The position numbers and the translations under genes were made by a program. Source: Acidobacteriota bacterium (GTDB lineage: Bacteria > Acidobacteriota > Blastocatellia > Chloracidobacteriales > Chloracidobacteriaceae). From it: DNA of 49,023 bases. Shown here piece after piece: positions 257-36,053 of this stretch. The notes under the pieces were generated by a model, which was not told the origin of the DNA, did not search any database, and was given only the letters and a program-made list of their open reading frames with translations. Each line of letters starts with the position of its first letter. The stretch's first letter is position 1. The DNA lies in the NCBI GenBank assembly GCA_016208495.1, contig JACQXX010000117.1, forward strand, positions 1 to 49,023. The letters run 5' to 3'.

Positions 257-3200
257 ATGAAACAATTCCACCTCTCCCTTGGGATCTCAAATCTGTTCAT
301 CAACCGGCCAGTGATGACAACGCTGGTTATGCTTGGGATTCTCTTGTTTGGGGTGCTGGGGTACAACGCGTTGCCGGTCAGTGACTTGCCCAACGTTGAC
401 TACCCTTCGATTTCAGTTTCAGCCAACCTGCCCGGCGCCAGCCCTGAAACCATGGCCTCTGCCGTTGCCTCACCCCTGGAGCGACAGTTTTCCGGGATTG
501 CCGGAATTGATTCAATCAACTCACAAAGCTCCCAGGGGTCAACCCAGATTACGATGCAGTTTGCCTTGAATCGCGACATTGACGCAGCCGCGCAGGATGT
601 CCAAACCGCAATTTCCGCGGCACTTGCCCAGCTCCCGCCAGGGATGCCCTCTCCGCCCAGCATGCGCAAGGTGAACCCGGCTGATGCCCCCATTCTGTTT
701 ATGGTGCTGAGTTCGCCGGTTTTACCGCTGACCACCGTCAATGAATATGCCGAAACCGTGATTGCACAGCAGATTTCAATGGTGAAAGGGGTCGCCCAGG
801 TACAGGTCTTTGCACCCCAGAAATTTGCGATTCGGGTTCAAATTGATCCGCACGAACTCCAATCGCGGGGCATCGGGATTGACGAAGTCACCTCAGCCAT
901 ACGCCGGGGCAATGTCAATCTCCCAGTGGGTTCAATTTACGGAACTGATCAATCACTCACGCTCCAGGCCAACGGGCAACTCAATAATTCGGCTGAATAC
1001 CAGCAGTTGATCGTGACGTACCGCAATGGCGCCCCTGTCCGGTTAAAAGACGTGGCCACGGTCATTGAGAGCGTGGAAAATGACAAAAATGCCGGATGGT
1101 TCAACGGCACCCGGAGTTTTACGATGGCCGTTCAACGCCAACCGGGGACAAATACAATTGAAGTCGTTGATAATATTAAGCTTCTCCTGCCTCGTCTCCA
1201 CGAACAGCTCCCCGCCTCGGTGAGACTTGATATCCTCAATGACCGGTCAGCTCAAATCCGCGAGTCAGTTCACGATGTCCAGTTCACACTGATGCTGACG
1301 GTTGGGCTGGTGGTAATGGTCATCTTTCTCTTCTTGAGGAATGTGCGGGCAACCATCATACCCAGTCTTTCCCTTCCGGTTTCCATTTTAGCCACCTTTG
1401 CCGTGATGTATGTACTGGGGTTTAGCCTCAACAACCTGTCGCTGATGGCACTCACTCTGTCGGTCGGGTTTGTGGTGGATGACGCCATTGTGGTTCTTGA
1501 AAACATTGTTCGTCGGATGGATCTGGGCGAACCTCCGCGTTCCGCTGCCCTCAACGGAGCGCGTGAAGTCGGGTTTACCGTGGTTTCGATGACCATTTCC
1601 CTGGTTGCCGTCTTTATTCCGATTTTATTTATGGGCGGGATTTTGGGGCGGTTATTTAAAGAATTTGCCATCACCATCAGCCTGGCAATTCTGTTCTCGG
1701 GGTTTGTTTCCCTTTCGCTGACGCCGATGTTGTGCAGCCGGTATTTGCGCCCCACGGCGGAACACAACCAATCCTGGTTGTATCGGCTGACGGAAAAAAT
1801 ATTTAACGGCATTCTGAAAGTCTATTCCCAGAGTCTGCGCGAGGTGATGCGGTTTGGGAAAACCACACTCACGATTGCGTTTATCCTGATTGGTATAACC
1901 GGATGGATTTTTACCCAGGTCCCAAAAGGGTTTATTCCCAACGACGACTATGGCTTTATCTTTGGAAGCACAGAGGGGATTCAGGGAATTTCCTTTGCGG
2001 AAATGAAAAAGATCCAGGAACAGGTGGTTGCCATTGTCCGCCAGGATCCCAATGTGCTGGCGGTGTCTTCAAACGTTGGGGCCGGGGGCAGAAATTCGAC
2101 CTCAAACAGCGGTTCAATGTTTGTCAAACTCAAACCCTTAAAGGATCGAAAAGTCAGCTCCGAGCAGTTTATCAATCAAATTCGCCCCAAACTGGCCAAA
2201 GTTGCCGGGGTTCGGGTGTTTTTATTTAACCCCCCGGCCATTCGGATTGGTGGCATTTCCTCGCGGAGCGTGTATCAGGCGACGCTCCAGGGCACCGATA
2301 TTGCCCAATTAAATGCCGCAGCCCAGCAGCTTGAACGAAAAATGCGCGGTATCAAGGAGTTGCAGGATGTCACCAGCGATCTGGAGAACCGCAATCCGGA
2401 ACTTGAGGTTTCGATTGACCGCACACAGGCAGCCGCCTATGGACTGTCAGTTGAACAAATCCAATCGGCATTAAATGACGCCTTTGGAACCCGGCAGATT
2501 TCAACCATTTACACCGAAACGAACGAATATCAGGTCATTGCCGAACTCAAACCTGAATTTCAGCGAAATGTCGAGTCAGTCACATTGCTTCCCATTCGAT
2601 CCAACACTGGGAAATTGGTGCCGCTGGGCGCCGTGGCCTCGGTACAGGAAAGTGTCGGCCCACTGGTCATCAACCACGTTGGCCAGTTGACCTCGGTCAC
2701 GATTTCATTCGGGCTGCGGCCAGATATTTCACTGAGTCAGGGAACGGCATTGATTCGTGAAGCTTCAACTGGATTGTTACCGGCGGATATCGCCCTTTCC
2801 TTTCAAGGTACGGCTCAGGTATTTGAAGAATCAATGAAAAACCTGAACTGGTTGCTGCTCATCGCCGTGCTGGTTATCTATCTGGTTCTCGGCATTTTGT
2901 ATGAAAGCTTTATCCACCCGTTCACCATTCTTTCCGGATTGCCTTCAGCCGGGATGGGGGCACTGTTGACCTTGTTGCTATTTCAACAGGAACTCAATGT
3001 CTATGGGTTTGTGGGTCTCATCATGTTGATTGGAATTGTGAAGAAAAATGCGATTATGATGATTGACTTTGCCCTCGAAACCCAGCGGTCATCGGGGTCT
3101 TCACCGGAAGAAGCCATTTATCTGGCCTGTGTCGTTCGCTTTCGTCCAATTATGATGACAACGATGGCGGCCTTGATGGGAACACTGCCCATTGCGCTTG

Positions 3201-3865: not shown

Positions 3866-4131
3866 TTCAACCGAAGAAGTAAGAAACCGGGTCGCATTGA
3901 AGGGTCAAGGGTTATTTCAGTCTTAATAAAATTGAACAAAATAAAATCAACAGCTTTCATTCTGGAGGAATGGTTGAGTTGAGACCAGTCCTGTGGGGCC
4001 AGAGCCGGTGATCGGGGATAAATTGATGGCTGCGGGCGGCGAGAAAACCAGCCGTGCCGAATCCCAGATTTCCAACCAGTCTCTAAGTACAAGTCCCCAT
4101 AAATAAGGGGTGGGAATTCGGTTCCTCCGAA
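3866..4131. other. no supported gene
   Basis: I see no convincing coding sequence here. The one notable structure is a weak hairpin, CCCC-ATAAATA-GGGG, near 4094-4110. The region leads into the truncated inverted-repeat element. Confidence 0.5.
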
Positions 4132-29779: not shown

Positions 29780-30349
29780 TTAGTCTCCGGTGGCGGCACT
29801 TGCCTGTGGAATCAATCCCCGGCGCTCCAGTTCGCGCAGGATCTTGGCCGCACTTTCATCAATCGTTTCACGGTCGGTTTCAACCGTCACTTCGGGGGAA
29901 TGAGGAGCTTCGTAAGGGTCTGAAACACCAGTAAAACTTTTAATTTCACCAGTTAAGGCTTTTTTATATAGCCCTTTCACATCCCGCTCGATCAAGGCAT
30001 CAAGTGAACATTTGACATAGACTTCGATAAATTCCGCGCCGTTTTGTTCAATATCGGCCCTGACTTCGTTGCGAATGTCGCGATAGGGTGAAATCGCGGC
30101 TGAGATGACACCTACTCCGTTGCGAGCCAGCAAGCGACAGACAAAGCCAATGCGGCGGATGTTTGTGTCGCGATCTTCTTTCGAGAACCCAAGTCCTTTT
30201 GAAAGATGGGTCCGCACTTCATCACCATCCAGCACTTCAAGTCGAATGCCGCGGCTGGCAAGTCGTGAAACCAGAACGCCGGTTAACGTTGTTTTTCCAG
30301 CTCCCGAAAGTCCGGTAAACCAAATCGTAAATCCTTTGTGTTGACTCAT
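29780..30349 (-). CDS. cysC: adenylylsulfate kinase
   Basis: A 189-residue APS kinase, which phosphorylates adenosine 5'-phosphosulfate to PAPS. It has the P-loop GLSGAGKTT (residues 13-21), [22 protein letters not shown], the INRRIG-like TNIRRIGFV and [19 protein letters not shown] followed by [11 protein letters not shown], all family hallmarks. ATG 30349 has AGGAG in front; upstream in-frame codons fall in repeat DNA. It is the last gene of the sulfur operon. Since the operon's CysH looks like an APS reductase, PAPS may serve sulfation or a second route. Confidence 0.95.
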
Positions 30350-30374
30350 TTTTTTCTCCTGAAAAATAGATAAT

Positions 30375-30440
30375 AACCACACGAAACCCTTTGAAAATGA
30401 AGGTTTTATTTTTCGTGTATTTCGTGTATTTCGTGGTTTC
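30375..30440. repeat. TTTCGTGTA nonamer array with inverted left copy
   Basis: CCACACGAAA (30378-30387) is followed by TTTCGTGTATTTCGTGTA and TTTCGTGG (30410-30436), the inverse orientation. The period is nine. It lies within the CysH-CysC intergenic region. Confidence 0.6.
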
Positions 30441-30473
30441 TTGGTCTGTAATTCTGAATTGTTACGCCATTCT

Positions 30474-30559
30474 GGGATCATTGCCTCGATTCAGCAGAAG
30501 GTTAACCTATTGAAATCATTGCATGTTCTTGAACCCTGAACCCTGAACCCTGAACCCTA
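30474..30559. repeat. GAACCCT element, copy G2
   Basis: A core with AAGGTTAACCTATTGAAAT precedes four GAACCCT units, followed by AACTGGCA. It matches copy G1 at 18283 in order and sequence and ends eight bases from the cysH stop. Confidence 0.75.
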
Positions 30560-30566
30560 ACTGGCA

Positions 30567-31283
30567 TTAGCGATGTAATCCGCATTCAGTTTTTTCCGTA
30601 CCGCGCCAGCGACCAGCCCGCGAATGTTCCCCAATTTGAACCGGTGTGGTGCAGGGCGTACAGCCGATAGATGGATATTGTTGATCGTGCAACGGGTTAT
30701 ATGGAATTTTATGCTTGAAGATAAATCGCCACACATCCTGACTGGTCCAGGTTGCCAGCGGATTGATTTTGATCAAATCAAATTTTGAATCGAATGAAAC
30801 AATTGGGCTGCTGGCTCGGGTGACTGATTGATCCCGGCGAATCGCTGTCACCCACGCCCGCAAATCGGAAAGTGTTTCAACCAGTGGCTCGATTTTTCTC
30901 AACTGGCAGCACCGGTTTGGCTCACGTTCCCACAATCGGTCGCCGTGGATCCTGGCCTGGGCTTCAACTGAAATCCGCGAAGCCCGCCGTTCAATCTGGA
31001 CGCCATACCGGGCTTCAAGTTTTGCTTTGAGTTCGTAGGTTTCTGGAAACAGGAGCCCGGTGTCGAGGTAAAACATTCGAGCCTTTGGATTGATTTGGGC
31101 CAGCATATGCACCAGCACACACCCTTCGGCCCCAAATCCGGTTGCCAGCGCTACATCCTGGCCAAATTCTTCGAGAGACCATTCTAAAATTGCTTGCGGA
31201 GTTTCCGATTCAAACTGAGCGGAAAGACGGGTTAATTCAACTTCAGTCAATTCGGAAGTCAATTCAAACGTTGTGTTTTCCAT
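30567..31283 (-). CDS. cysH: phosphoadenylyl/adenylyl-sulfate reductase
   Basis: A 238-residue thioredoxin- or glutathione-dependent reductase producing sulfite. The adenine-nucleotide domain shows VALATGFGAEGCVLVHML and FYLDTGLLFPETYEL. The pair NRCCQLRKIEPL and GCTPCT gives the CC...CxxC set that binds a [4Fe-4S] cluster in APS reductases and is missing from PAPS-only enzymes. The C-terminal catalytic motif KTECGLH is present. These traits favour APS as substrate. It lies between the CbiX-SUMT and CysC genes. Confidence 0.95.
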   Translation of the reverse strand: MENTTFELTSELTEVELTRLSAQFESETPQAILEWSLEEFGQDVALATGFGAEGCVLVHMLAQINPKARMFYLDTGLLFPETYELKAKLEARYGVQIERRASRISVEAQARIHGDRLWEREPNRCCQLRKIEPLVETLSDLRAWVTAIRRDQSVTRASSPIVSFDSKFDLIKINPLATWTSQDVWRFIFKHKIPYNPLHDQQYPSIGCTPCTTPVQIGEHSRAGRWRGTEKTECGLHR

Positions 31284-31376: not shown

Positions 31377-32606
31377 TCAATTGTTTTCGGTTTGCGAAAC
31401 CAGCGATGCCGCCCCTTGAGTTTCAGCAAAAAATGCAAATTGAGCCGGCTGATGGACCGGAAACCAGTCAAGCTGGTCGTGCAGACTGACTACATCGCCA
31501 ATCACAATCACGGCTGGCTGTTTCATCTGGGCACGTTCGGCGGCTTCGGCAATGGTTTCCAGCGTTCCGACGACCTTTTGCTGGCCGTCATAGGTTCCCC
31601 ACCGGATGACAGCCACGGGCGTGGTCACCAGGCGACCTGCGGCGATAAACTCAGCCACAATCAAACGCAACTGAGCCATTCCCATTAAAACCACCACCGT
31701 GTCAGCTCCGGCGGTTTCGGCGATGAGTGTTTCAGAAAGCGCCCCGTCACCGGCCCGAGCACCACTCACAACCGCAAATGAAGACGACAGCCCGCGATGG
31801 GTCAGCGGAATTCCCGCATAGGCCGGCGCCGCCAGCGCCGAACTGATTCCGGGAACGATTTCAAATGGAATACCGGCTGCCTGGAGCGCCAGGGCTTCTT
31901 CGCCACCGCGTCCAAACACAAACGGATCACCGCCCTTGAGCCGAACAACACGTTTCCCCTGCCGGGCCTGGTCAATCAACATCTGGTTGATTTCGGATTG
32001 AGGCGTTTGGCGACCACCGCCAATTTTCCAAACCGGAATGTATTCGACATTCTTACGGGCATATCGGAGCAATTCCGGGTTCACCAGATAGTCATACACA
32101 ATGACATCGCACTCAGCCAGCAGGTCTCTGGCTTTGATCGTCAGCAGTCCCGGATCACCCGGACCAGCCCCGACCAGAAACACTGTTCCGTGTGGTGCTC
32201 GATAGGCGGGGAAACTCGGTGTATTCCAGCTTTCAGCCGCATTGATCCGATCAATTGAAGCGTCAATGACCGACCAGTGACCTGACAGCGGTTCTGAAAT
32301 CGTGAACGTCACATCAGGATGGTTTTTCGCCGCTTCCGCCACTTCGCGTGGCAAATCACCTCGGGTATGACGTCCTGGAGACAGAAAATAGGGGTGAACC
32401 GTGATGTGGTGGGCGCCCTGCGCCACCAGACTTTCAAATCCCTGGGCAATCGTCGGATGGGTGATTTCCAGAAAAGCCGCTTCGACCAGGTCATACCCGC
32501 CGCGCTCGCGGATGCGTTCGGCGGCGGAAATGACGTCCAGATTGGCTTCTTCGCGTCGACTCCCGTGACCGACAACCAGGATGGCGTGTTGAATATGGTG
32601 AGTCAT
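31377..32606 (-). CDS. CbiX/SirB-type chelatase fused to uroporphyrinogen-III C-methyltransferase
   Basis: A 409-residue two-domain protein for siroheme synthesis. Residues 1-125 resemble CbiX/SirB chelatases, with H14 in VVGHGSR and H71 in VHPYFLSPGRHTRGD as the metal ligands. Residues from about 140 are an uroporphyrinogen-III methyltransferase (SUMT): GTVFLVGAGPGDPGLLTIKA, VYDYLVNPELL, VVRLKGGDPFVFGRGGEEA and GIPLTHRG. Together they make the siroheme precursor and insert iron. The oxidation of precorrin-2 (CysG N-terminal part) is not visible. It is placed before sulfite reductase, which needs siroheme. Confidence 0.93.
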   Translation of the reverse strand: MTHHIQHAILVVGHGSRREEANLDVISAAERIRERGGYDLVEAAFLEITHPTIAQGFESLVAQGAHHITVHPYFLSPGRHTRGDLPREVAEAAKNHPDVTFTISEPLSGHWSVIDASIDRINAAESWNTPSFPAYRAPHGTVFLVGAGPGDPGLLTIKARDLLAECDVIVYDYLVNPELLRYARKNVEYIPVWKIGGGRQTPQSEINQMLIDQARQGKRVVRLKGGDPFVFGRGGEEALALQAAGIPFEIVPGISSALAAPAYAGIPLTHRGLSSSFAVVSGARAGDGALSETLIAETAGADTVVVLMGMAQLRLIVAEFIAAGRLVTTPVAVIRWGTYDGQQKVVGTLETIAEAAERAQMKQPAVIVIGDVVSLHDQLDWFPVHQPAQFAFFAETQGAASLVSQTENN

Positions 32607-32796: not shown

Positions 32797-34395
32797 TCAG
32801 GCGGTTAATGCGACTCGCTCCTCAAAACTGCCCAGGTGTTCGAGTTCTTCCAGGTTTTGGCGAGAAAGAAATGCCTGAAAACTTTCCGCCGGGCTGATGC
32901 GATGCGCCAGGTAGTCGCGAACCACTCGTTCGAGATAATACTTGACCTCTTCAGCCGCAACTTTGGTGGACAACTCCCGTCCAAACCGATAGTCATTCCC
33001 TAAATGACCACCCAGAAAAACGCGAAACGCCTCGATTTTTCCGGCTGGAGTGACGATGTGATCTCCGACCAGACCGACATCACATACCTGATAATGGGCG
33101 CAACTGTTGGGGCATCCGGTGACACTGATGCGAAGCGGAACTTTCAGGTCAGGAACGGTAGCTTCAAGGTATTCAATCAATTCCGAAGCCCGCGCTTTGG
33201 TTTCAACCACCGCCAGTTTGCAAAAACGTTTCCCCGTGCAGGCAATGGTTCCGGTTCGAAAAACCGACGCATTGGTAAAGAACCCAAGCGCCGCCAGTTC
33301 ATTTGAAAGTAAATGGCCAGCATGTTCCGGCACATCCAGCACGACAAAATTTTGGGTGGTTGTGAGCCGAATGCGATTGCTGCCGTAACGTTTCGCACTA
33401 TTGGCCACGGCAATCATTTCTGTTCCGTTGAGTCGGCCACGTTCAGTTGCCACGCCGGCATACTGCAACCCAGATTGCTTTTGGGCGCGGATCCCAATGT
33501 GGGCCCGGTTGGCATTGATCGGGATCGTGGGGGCTTCGCCGTCTGTAAGCTGGCGACCCAGTCGGGTTTCGAGTTCCTGGCGAAATCGGGCTGGCCCCCA
33601 GGCTTCCAGTAAAAACTTGAGCCGTGCTTTGTGGCGATATTCGCGAAACCCGTGATCGCGGAAAATGGCACAAACCTGGGCTGTGACTTCAACTGCTTCT
33701 TCAGGAAAGACATGCACGCCAAGCCGGTCGGCAAATCGCTCTTTTGACCCAAGCCCGCCGCCGACCCACAGGTCAAACGCAATCCGGCCATCTGGACGGC
33801 GTACGGCAATCAATCCGACATCATTGATTTCGTGACCGGTGCAATATTGCGAGCATCCAGAAACGGTAATTTTGAACTTTCGTGGCAGGTTGGAATATTC
33901 ATGGTTATCAAGAAAATACTGATGAATTTGCTCAATAACTGGTTCAGCATCAATTAATTCGGCGGAATCAATTCCGGCCAGCGGGCAACCCGTTACATTA
34001 CGGGTGATGTCTCCGCAGGCACCCGAAGTCGTTAGTCCAACGCGACTTAGCTCCTCAAAAATGGCAGGCACGTCTTCGATGCGAATGTAATGAAATTGTA
34101 TATCCTGGCGCGTTGTAACATCACCGGTGTTTTGCCCAAACCGAACCGAAAGCTGCCCCAGCGTTGCCAGTTGTTCAACCGTGAGTGTGCCATTGGGAAT
34201 TTTCACCCGGAGCATGAAATACCCATCTTCTTGTGGGCGTTGGGTATACAGGCCATACCACCGCAGCCGTACGTCAAGATCATCTGGATCAATTGACGCA
34301 AAACCTTCTTTTGCATAGCGCAGCAGATCATCCAAACAATCAAGGGCATCACGTTCGCGTTTTACTTTTTCAGCTCGGGTTTCTTTCTTTGCCAC
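32797..34395 (-). CDS. ferredoxin-dependent nitrite/sulfite reductase
   Basis: A 532-residue siroheme and [4Fe-4S] enzyme that reduces sulfite to sulfide or nitrite to ammonia. It has two ferrodoxin-like halves: RFGQNTGDVTTRQDIQFHYI and TTSGACGDITRNVTGCPLAGID near the N-terminus, and the cluster motifs CTGKRFC and CPNSC near residues 400 and 440. The protein starts with GTG at 34395, behind a strong AGGAGG. The sulfur operon and SAM-sensing leader favour sulfite. A role in nitrite is possible because the family overlaps. Confidence 0.93.
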   Translation of the reverse strand: MAKKETRAEKVKRERDALDCLDDLLRYAKEGFASIDPDDLDVRLRWYGLYTQRPQEDGYFMLRVKIPNGTLTVEQLATLGQLSVRFGQNTGDVTTRQDIQFHYIRIEDVPAIFEELSRVGLTTSGACGDITRNVTGCPLAGIDSAELIDAEPVIEQIHQYFLDNHEYSNLPRKFKITVSGCSQYCTGHEINDVGLIAVRRPDGRIAFDLWVGGGLGSKERFADRLGVHVFPEEAVEVTAQVCAIFRDHGFREYRHKARLKFLLEAWGPARFRQELETRLGRQLTDGEAPTIPINANRAHIGIRAQKQSGLQYAGVATERGRLNGTEMIAVANSAKRYGSNRIRLTTTQNFVVLDVPEHAGHLLSNELAALGFFTNASVFRTGTIACTGKRFCKLAVVETKARASELIEYLEATVPDLKVPLRISVTGCPNSCAHYQVCDVGLVGDHIVTPAGKIEAFRVFLGGHLGNDYRFGRELSTKVAAEEVKYYLERVVRDYLAHRISPAESFQAFLSRQNLEELEHLGSFEERVALTA

Positions 34396-34526: not shown

Positions 34527-34757
34527 TCAGATCAGCTCTTCGAGTTCGGCGCGTTTCTCAATTTTTCCCAACGGAATCGCGCTCCAGGCTCGCTCGTGCA
34601 GGAAAAACACAATCACCTTGATAATGGTTTCGCCACCCGCAACGCTGAGAGCCAGTAATCCTTTTTGAGTCGCGCCAAAGACAATTCCTCCGGTGATCAT
34701 TGAGGAGATAAGTCGGTAACTCATTGCTTTCATAAGACTTCTGTAATGTGTTTCCAT
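34527..34757 (-). CDS. DUF2061 membrane protein
   Basis: A 76-residue membrane protein with two hydrophobic helices (SSMITGGIVFGATQKGLLALSV and TIIKVIVFFLHERAW). The start METHYRSLMKAMSYRLISS is a strong match to the METHxRSxxKAxSWR opening of DUF2061 proteins, which supports ATG 34757 over the more distant in-frame codons. DUF2061 genes are often adjacent to sulfur assimilation genes such as CysC. It is the first gene of this operon, behind the riboswitch leader. Confidence 0.88.
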   Translation of the reverse strand: METHYRSLMKAMSYRLISSMITGGIVFGATQKGLLALSVAGGETIIKVIVFFLHERAWSAIPLGKIEKRAELEELI

Positions 34758-34915
34758 ACAAGTGAAAGACGTTGACAATGAAACAAAAGGCAATTTTTAA
34801 GCCTTCGAGATGAAAACTTACGTGCCGTTTGTTAGCGGCAACAACACCAGGTGGACTTTTGGGCTCGTCCGTGCAACAGCATCCTGATTTGGCTCATAAA
34901 GAATACTTTCTGAAC
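34758..34915 (-). other. 5' leader of the sulfur operon
   Basis: This stretch lies between the leader terminator and the DUF2061 start. It contains a small hairpin TGCCG/CGGCA (34823-34840), and no gene is seen. Confidence 0.5.
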
Positions 34916-34916
34916 G

Positions 34917-34949
34917 AAAAAACCTCGTGCTTTTGGGAATCGCACGAGG
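34917..34949 (-). terminator. intrinsic terminator in the riboswitch leader
   Basis: On the minus strand, CCTCGTGC and GCACGAGG form a perfect 8-bp GC-rich stem with an 11-base loop, directly followed by TTTTTT. It lies 25 bases downstream of the riboswitch aptamer and before the first gene, the layout of a transcription attenuator. Confidence 0.88.
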
Positions 34950-34973
34950 TAAACACACATATCTTCGGGCGGT

Positions 34974-35021
34974 TCTTTAGCACTTTTTAGCGTGGAGCAA
35001 GCGACCATAAATCACCACGTG
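34974..35021 (-). promoter_or_regulatory. SAM-II riboswitch aptamer (metA-type)
   Basis: Read on the minus strand, CGTGG (35019-35015) and CCACG (34995-34991) form stem P1. The loop begins TGATTTA, and CGCTT (35003-34999) can pair with AAGTG (34985-34981) as the pseudoknot P2. The 3' end GCTAAAG and the internal GCTTGC also fit the SAM-II consensus as I recall it. S-adenosylmethionine binding would sense the end product of sulfur assimilation. The downstream terminator makes transcriptional control likely. Confidence 0.85.
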
Positions 35022-35069
35022 GAAAAATTTTGAAAACAATCAAATGCGAGCTGTCAATATAGCGACAAT

Positions 35070-35098
35070 TTTGTACAGTATAGTTTCGGCAACGTCAA
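35070..35098 (-). promoter_or_regulatory. candidate sigma70 promoter of the sulfur operon
   Basis: On the minus strand, TTGACG (35098-35093), a 17-base spacer and TACAAA (35075-35070) form a weak sigma70-like promoter. Transcription would start about 40 bases before the riboswitch, which fits the leader layout. Confidence 0.45.
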
Positions 35099-35480: not shown

Positions 35481-36053
35481 ATGAGTTCAAATCCATTACC
35501 ACCTTCATCAGTTCATTCAACCACGGAAGTCGCCACGCTCGGAGGCGGCTGTTTCTGGTGTCTGGAAGCCGTTTTCGACCAGCTTCAAGGCGTGCTTCAC
35601 GTTGAGTCGGGATATTCGGGCGGGACCGTCGAAAATCCAACCTATATGCAGGTGTGCGCTGAGATCACTGGTCACGCTGAGGTTGTTCACGTCACTTTTG
35701 ATCCGACCGCCATTTCATTTCAGGAAATTTTGCAGATCTTTTTTGTCATCCACGACCCAACCACATTCAACCGGCAGGGGGCCGACATCGGAACTCAATA
35801 CCGGTCAGCTATTTTCTATCACTCTCCAGAGCAAAAACAGGTTGCCGAAACGATGATTCGGGAGTTAAATGCGGTTGGGGTTTATGACCGACCGATTGTC
35901 ACCGAAGTGACCGCTTTTACCCAGTTTTTTGAAGCTGAGCCGTACCATCAAGAGTACTTTGTCCGCAACCCGGCTCAAGGCTATTGCCAGTTTGTGGTCT
36001 CACCCAAGGTGGCCAAATTCCGCAAACTGTTTGCCGAAAAACTGAAGAAATAA
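35481..36053 (+). CDS. msrA: peptide-methionine (S)-S-oxide reductase
   Basis: A 190-residue MsrA, which repairs methionine-S-sulfoxide. The catalytic segment GGGCFWCLEAVF carries C24, and the family motifs GYSGG, YMQVC, GHAEVVHVTFDP, IFFVIHDPTT and DIGTQYRSAIFY follow. A C-terminal QGYCQF cysteine can act as resolving residue. Length and order are canonical. A terminator hairpin follows, so it is probably a single-gene unit. Confidence 0.96.
   Translation: MSSNPLPPSSVHSTTEVATLGGGCFWCLEAVFDQLQGVLHVESGYSGGTVENPTYMQVCAEITGHAEVVHVTFDPTAISFQEILQIFFVIHDPTTFNRQGADIGTQYRSAIFYHSPEQKQVAETMIRELNAVGVYDRPIVTEVTAFTQFFEAEPYHQEYFVRNPAQGYCQFVVSPKVAKFRKLFAEKLKK

Follow-up and report, generated by a model that had tools for sequence, protein, structure and literature searches.

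A SAM-II aptamer and intrinsic terminator as the probable OFF switch of a sulfate-assimilation operon in Blastocatellia

Is an acidobacterial sulfate-assimilation operon switched by S-adenosylmethionine (SAM) and, if so, how would the aptamer act on the terminator behind it? The question is raised by a 49,023-nt stretch of DNA (i.e. the window; contig JACQXX010000117.1) from a member of the Chloracidobacteriaceae (Acidobacteriota, Blastocatellia), in which a sequence-only reading had placed a SAM-II riboswitch and an intrinsic terminator ahead of sulfate-assimilation genes. The genes behind the leader were all on the minus strand, in the following order:

34527..34793, minus strand: DUF2061 membrane protein (PF09834, E 1.1e-13; the true start may lie further in)
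32797..34395, minus strand: siroheme sulfite/nitrite-type reductase, read as a sulfite reductase from the operon
31377..32606, minus strand: CbiX plus uroporphyrinogen-III methyltransferase (siroheme synthesis), by protein families
30567..31283, minus strand: PAPS/APS reductase CysH, by protein families
29780..30481, minus strand: adenylyl-sulfate kinase (APS kinase), by protein families

The sequence of the reductase alone did not separate sulfite from nitrite reductase; the best NCBIfam models scored under their cut-off and the nearest solved chain is named as a probable nitrite reductase, NirA. The protein is read as the sulfite type because of its operon neighbours. The leader contained the following elements:

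34970..35019, minus strand: SAM-II aptamer (P1, P2a, P2b), from covariance models and alignment
CGTGG 35019-35015 / CCACG 34995-34991, minus strand: P1, 5/5 pairs
34998-34997/34981-34980, minus strand: P2a, 2 bp (G34998-C34980, C34997-G34981)
35007-35004/34973-34970, minus strand: P2b, 4 bp (U35007-G34970, G35006-C34971, G35005-C34972, U35004-A34973)
34972..34981, minus strand: 3' strand of the aptamer, GCTAAAGAAC, which contributes to P2; its counterpart in many relatives is complementary to the loop of the terminator
34917..34950, minus strand: intrinsic terminator (9-bp stem, 11-nt loop, T-tract)
34927..34931, minus strand: AGCAC, a weak antiterminator candidate able to form 5 bp with GTGCT 34983-34979
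35070..35098, minus strand: possible promoter TTGACG-N17-TACAAA, proposed by eye

Read from 35019 to 34970 on the minus strand, the aptamer runs CGTGG-TGATTTATGGTCGCTTGCT-CCACG-CTAAAAAGT-GCTAAAGAACCG, i.e. a P1 stem and a P2 pseudoknot, with 19 bases separating it from the terminator. P1 is a single stem of 5 bp, as expected of a P1 of about that length, and the pseudoknot joins the P1 loop to the 3' tail by six pairs, one of them G-U. Comparison with 43 relatives and the Rfam consensus identified the conserved cores TGATTT, GCTTGC (containing TTGC) and GCTAAAG, the last starting at 34981. The terminator stem is formed by ACCTCGTGC (34950-34942) and GCACGAGGT (34930-34922), enclosing the loop GATTCCCAAAA of 11 nt, and six T follow the 3' arm. 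All of the parts named by the sequence-only reading (P1 CGTGG/CCACG, TGATTT, GCTTGC, GCTAAAG and the terminator with six T) were present on the minus strand; its 8-bp terminator stem is in fact 9 bp, and its 5-bp pseudoknot is read as 2 bp plus 4 bp with no single 5-bp run. A consensus terminator scan, which accepts loops of no more than 8 nt, omitted this hairpin; the minimum-energy fold of 111 nt included it (z -2.15).

A consensus scan yielded no promoter at the window leader; the aptamer of genome G001 is preceded by a similar TTGACG-N18-TACATG. Repeats of ACTATA[CG]TGTACA and CTATATTGACA at about 35050-35085 (minus strand) are common to the G001 leader (L007, upstream of 3873), and a similar ATATAGTGTACA precedes the SAM-II-free operon of G081; by eye, these repeats are a possible transcription-factor site. 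Between the leader and a divergent methionine sulfoxide reductase gene (35481-36053, plus strand) sits a 24-nt inverted repeat (35178-35201/35272-35295; 96% complementary, 70 nt apart), and a perfect 15-nt inverted repeat was found at 35307-35321/35366-35380.

Rfam at its gathering score produced no match in the whole window. A relaxed search of 301 bases gave end-to-end matches to both SAM-II families, i.e. RF00521 at 21.1 bits (E 0.0096; cut-off 36) and RF01726 at 23.2 bits (E 0.026; cut-off 44); genome-wide, the RF00521 match at the locus had an E of 0.064. No other riboswitch class was detected in this search at E <= 5, the one further match being a Tetrahymena snoRNA model (E 4), which was rejected. 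A clade model covering P1 only was built on 40 aptamers from other loci of the class, which is taken to be Blastocatellia (Acidobacteriota); the copies of the window, G001 and G151 were left out. In the 8.4-Mb genome this model had three matches at E <= 1. The window locus was one of them, at 52.3 bits (E 2.5e-8); the other two (71.3 and 71.1 bits) were among the training sequences. Matches at E <= 1e-4 occurred in 151/162 class genomes, some of which had supplied training sequences. RF00521 at E <= 0.1 matched 50/58 relative genomes, exceeding its cut-off in 21/58; at this loose threshold 3/14 control genomes also matched, none over the cut-off. A supposed further copy in G001 (contig C190; 27.8 bits with RF00521) had no clade-model match (L138) and was rejected, and one of 45 aptamer pattern matches (L008, Campylobacterales) was judged false and removed.

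In an alignment of 44 aptamers, P1 and P2 were paired in 90.8% of pair cells, with a covariation score of 0.152 as compared to a mean of 0.075 for shuffled alignments (0/500) and at most 0.056 for slid ones. All five P1 positions were paired in 44/44 sequences. P2b exhibited both-side changes at 4/4 pairs, with 74.1% of its cells paired, and is kept in the window through a U-A pair at a position that is C-G in 37/44 sequences. By homology and predicted structure the window element is a SAM-II aptamer, and it very probably senses SAM. The proposed check with the Rfam covariance model had a divided outcome, with no match at the curated cut-off but sub-threshold Rfam scores and a clade-model match. 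These scores, the operon content and the relatives bear out the placement of a SAM-II element and terminator before a sulfate-assimilation operon.

The distribution of this arrangement was followed through the reductase. Its four closest named contigs (67-71% identity) are labelled Acidobacteriota, Pyrinomonadaceae, Blastocatellia and Actinomycetota, the last being a MAG with 'Acidobacteria' in its scaffold name; the other nine matches were Campylobacterales-type or gammaproteobacterial (31-41%). The leader on the Blastocatellia contig is the same as that of G001, a genome of the window's family, which points to Blastocatellia as the class. Close reductases (E <= 1e-165) were present in 9/162 class genomes, and a threshold of E <= 1e-150 retrieved 4/396 genomes drawn from the phylum, all four of Blastocatellia. 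A SAM-II aptamer with a terminator precedes the close reductase in three of the nine (window, G001 and G151), G001 and G151 being two other genera in which the pair stands before the orthologous gene with aptamers of 61.6 and 52.6 bits, respectively. G151 has a second SAM-II with its own terminator facing the opposite way, toward a Cys/Met PLP enzyme. No SAM-II was found in the available upstream DNA of five of the eight readable close reductases (G081, G155, G130, G120 and G054); the G002 leader is cut by a contig end.

Other SAM-II copies were examined for their targets. The window's own genome (8.38 Mb, 177 contigs) contains two better RF00521 copies in tandem (L003 3739-3951, contig C64), scoring 33.4 and 33.3 bits. 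Behind each lies a T-tailed hairpin, and the tandem stands before a gene of threonine-synthase type, beyond which comes one of aspartokinase type. Across the class, 97 distinct aptamers (i.e. 102 matches minus five duplicate loci, eight duplicate loci being omitted from the sources) were assigned the first ORF of at least 150 aa (100 aa where the locus end cuts) within 700 nt. Tandem copies were counted separately. Selection was by diversity and score, so that the resulting counts are not frequencies: 42 targets were of homocysteine methyltransferase type, 25 of threonine synthase type, 14 of O-acetylhomoserine sulfhydrylase type, four short-chain dehydrogenases, three peroxiredoxins, three window-type reductases, two of DinB type and three singletons, with one aptamer having none. 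Pfam matches underlie the names, covering one singleton and, in seven clusters, one member or more. The window aptamer and its relatives lie upstream of sulfur or methionine genes. The peroxiredoxin and short-chain dehydrogenase genes behind SAM-II at L145, L027, L037 and L155 are not obvious sulfur genes. Divergent SAM-II pairs, about 230-280 bases apart and serving opposite strands, were also observed:

L004, 3592-3653 (minus strand) and 3886-3946 (plus strand): divergent aptamers
L029, 1160-1220 (minus strand) and 1504-1566 (plus strand): divergent aptamers

Of the 97 class aptamers, 93 (the window's among them) have a called terminator hairpin no more than 125 nt behind them, a few of these calls being visibly wrong; each of the three reductase aptamers has one. 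In many of these terminators the loop and the start of the 3' arm read NNNTTTAGC, the antisense of aptamer GCTAAANNN. Pairing between aptamer and terminator was assessed for 86 of the 97 pairs, 75 of them distinct; the 11 left out comprised four without a called terminator (L112 plainly has one) and seven with stems of <8 bp, some visibly miscalled. For L021 and L133, both among the 86, an apparently misplaced strand start lowered the observed score. Over the 75 distinct pairs the class P2 strand GCUAAANNN matched and covaried with the terminator loop, variant going with variant: GCTAAGGAA with TTCCTTAGC, GCTAAATCG with CGATTTGGC, GCTAAAGAG with CTCTTTAGC and GCTAAACAGC with GCTGTTTAGC. The mean contiguous helix score was 15.19 as compared to 12.88 (sd 0.28) with terminators permuted (0/20000), although such permutation counts overstate significance because related sequences are not independent. 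Swapping terminators within the same locus takes away much of the phylogenetic bias and is the fairer test; it gave a modest result, the own partner having 8 wins, 6 ties and 1 loss over 15 aptamer pairs.

The signal was confined to particular positions and sequences. When 10-nt stretches were scanned, GCTAA itself (offset 0) gave the largest excess (z 8.1), with z 6.9 at -3, 5.7 at +3 and a weaker 3.1 at -6; none of the eight other computed offsets exceeded 1.7; the class P2b strand and following bases had no signal against the terminator arms (z 1.2 and -0.3). Scores of at least 14 were reached by 48/75 pairs, as compared to 1.1% of pairings with background hairpins, with 27/75 class pairs scoring <14. 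The motifs TTT[AG]GC or CCTTAGC were found in 38/75 terminator cores and 0/55 background hairpins; for this background, 400 kb of DNA from seven class genomes supplied 55 distinct T-tailed hairpins, which are not curated terminators and were picked out by a rule differing slightly from that used behind the aptamers. The best helix was at least 6 bp in 69/86 pairs, of which 65 involve the loop and 56 extend into the 3' arm. These pairings between P2 strand and terminator loop suggest an antiterminator in the class.

In the window itself the pairing is short. The sequence-only reading had paired the aptamer's AGTGC with GCAC of the terminator arm as a possible antiterminator; relatives place the contact at that position, but here it amounts to just the 5 bp of GTGCT/AGCAC. 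The helix score is 13, a value reached or exceeded by 16% of the 55 hairpins of the background; the window strand would pair at least as well with 65% of the terminators behind the set's other SAM-II aptamers. The equivalent pairings were 6 bp in G001 (3.6% of the background equal or better) and 9 bp in G151 (background 0/55). Energies for the window were -7.6 for the capture pairing as against -15.3 for the terminator. With a capture pairing so short and weak, the switching step at this locus is deduced mainly from relatives.

Taken together, the sulfate-assimilation operon is very probably turned off at the level of transcription by this element, working as a SAM-II riboswitch. SAM would be the ligand and, when bound, would lock the P2 strand GCUAAA in the pseudoknot, allowing the terminator to form. 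When SAM is absent, the free GCUAAA strand would capture the terminator loop and 3' arm as they emerge from the polymerase, giving read-through. The captured helix is weaker than the finished terminator (class medians of -11.2 and -21.6 kcal/mol, respectively), so that the decision would have to be kinetic. This difference in stability also fits the view that the loop complementarity of relatives is a by-product, i.e. a trans loop contact or a stabilising kissing contact, with no antiterminator. On geometrical grounds, however, a helix of at least 7 bp and the full stem could hardly coexist, as no spare bases lie between loop and 3' arm, and among the 69 helices of 6 bp or more, 56 take in bases of the 3' arm; a by-product is considered rather unlikely.

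An aptamer that is real but does not control its terminator, the latter being constitutive and the former acting on leader translation or RNA stability, would account for the weak antiterminator of the window copy and for the terminator lying within the minimum-energy fold. The frame that ends in CCCR (see below) is open back into the aptamer, and the terminator after SAM-II at Sinorhizobium meliloti metA is not predicted to be SAM-responsive (PMC9373788). Such uncoupling is considered unlikely, as it leaves the pairing and covariation across the class, and the presence of a terminator behind all three reductase aptamers, to be explained. The low Rfam score could alternatively reflect a variant class with another ligand, spermidine being sensed by rare variants of a SAM aptamer (PMC10853860); retention of the TGATTT, TTGC and GCTAAA cores, and the position of relatives before methionine synthase, homocysteine synthase and threonine synthase type genes, make a non-SAM ligand very improbable. 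A chance match without structured RNA would agree with the missing Rfam gathering match, but is contradicted by the E of 2.5e-8 from a model built without the locus, the orthologous placement in two other genera and the compensatory pairs, and its probability is negligible.

A second input to the operon is suggested by an ORF between the SAM-II terminator and DUF2061:

34832..34897, minus strand: candidate leader peptide MSQIRMLLHGRAQKSTWCCCR, with presumptive start codon and function

The ORF ends CCCR, and its three Cys codons (34846-34838) overlap a hairpin at 34840-34823; when the RNA around the polycysteine stop was folded (34900-34770; z -1.26), no attenuator could be clearly recognised. 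The pattern TGYTGYTGY occurred within 600 nt upstream in 6/8 close-reductase leaders (window, G151, G155, G054, G130 and G120, although G130 and G120 are very alike and of one genus) and was absent over that distance from those of G001 and G081. It was present in 2/14 more distant reductase leaders (G043 and G028, one genus), against a background of 0.059 per kb of strand or about 0.04 per leader. In G151, MLTVPNMSACCCPRKFP stands directly before the aptamer; in G155, G130 and G120, Cys-rich peptides are followed by a strong T-tailed hairpin (by eye) with no SAM-II. Polycysteine leader peptides before sulfite-reductase-type operons were seen in the window, L004 (upstream of 3892), L134, L135, L136 and L137, with or without SAM-II in the same leader. 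From this analysis we infer cysteine-responsive attenuation in the polycysteine leaders, combined with SAM-II in two of them, and the Cys codon runs before 6/8 close operons suggest joint control by SAM and cysteine. Canestrari reportedly described, in 2020, short-ORF attenuators with polycysteine in mycobacteria. These resemble the window ORF in being short leader ORFs with consecutive Cys codons; the window ORF differs in sharing its leader with a SAM-II aptamer.

Pseudomonadota were examined for comparison, RF00521 matching 72/398 evenly drawn genomes at E <= 1e-5. From 75 proteobacterial loci, including five on rhizobial plasmids, 13 unparsed, eight without a called terminator and five with stems of <7 bp were set aside, so that 43 distinct pairs could be compared at the loop and 39 at the arms. 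The loop signal was absent from the 43 pairs (8.58 as compared to 8.94 permuted, z -1.9); the P2b strand region matched the terminator 5' arm in the 39 (13.51 as compared to 12.29, z 3.5). From these sequence comparisons, the link between this aptamer and its terminator therefore seems to differ between Blastocatellia and Proteobacteria. L208 (Sinorhizobium medicae plasmid pSU277_4, 1501-1560) has a SAM-II aptamer with terminator (TCTAAATAG variant) and no methionine gene annotated within 3 kb.

In the open-licence literature searched no report was found of SAM-II in Acidobacteriota, of a sulfate-assimilation target or of a loop-capture platform, and the word Acidobacteri is absent from a 2025 survey of contiguous riboswitches (PMC12452182); Acidobacteriota members may already stand in Rfam member lists or paper supplements. 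The findings extend SAM-II, with model matches in 151/162 class genomes, as a widespread element to another phylum. They also add sulfate reduction to its methionine-gene targets, a cysteine-sensing second layer being a further possibility. A testable model of terminator control by SAM-II is offered by the way in which the 5' strand of P2, the strand GCUAAA and the loop of the terminator match. A Blastocatellia platform new to the literature, together with a two-input SAM/cysteine leader at sulfate operons, is a joint reading that we put forward tentatively, with somewhat less than even confidence. Under it, the terminator loop would carry the antisense of the P2 strand that adjoins the SAM site, the ligand and the loop would contend for the same nucleotides, and at sulfate operons one leader would read SAM by RNA and cysteine by the ribosome.

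SAM is described as lying in the P2 groove of SAM-II (PMC10907184). SAM-II with terminators has been known in Proteobacteria since 2005 (PMC1273637; PMC2258182), control of those terminators being described in 2007 as not experimentally established (PMC2258182); in 2022 work on S. meliloti metA and metZ, a terminating SAM-II is predicted for metZ and its short RNA was seen (PMC9373788). Tandem SAM-II riboswitches, 44 examples with terminator-bearing copies, have been known since 2022 (PMC9481103); the window's own genome has a tandem pair, while the window copy is single and followed by the polycysteine leader candidate. The long-loop family RF01726 is assigned to Bacteroidetes and marine sequences (PMC2864571), and the window matches it end to end at 23.2 bits, well under its cut-off of 44. 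Reported targets of SAM-II in Rhizobiales and Rhodobacterales are metY, metA, metX, hom, metC and metW (PMC4239095). The alphaproteobacterial SAM-II (SAM_alpha, RF00521) and the window element are alike in P1, the P2 pseudoknot, the TGATTT/TTGC/GCTAAA cores, a terminator behind the aptamer and an association with sulfur amino acid genes. They differ in that the window element belongs to Acidobacteriota and precedes a sulfate-assimilation operon, and in that its relatives match GCTAAANNN to the terminator loop.
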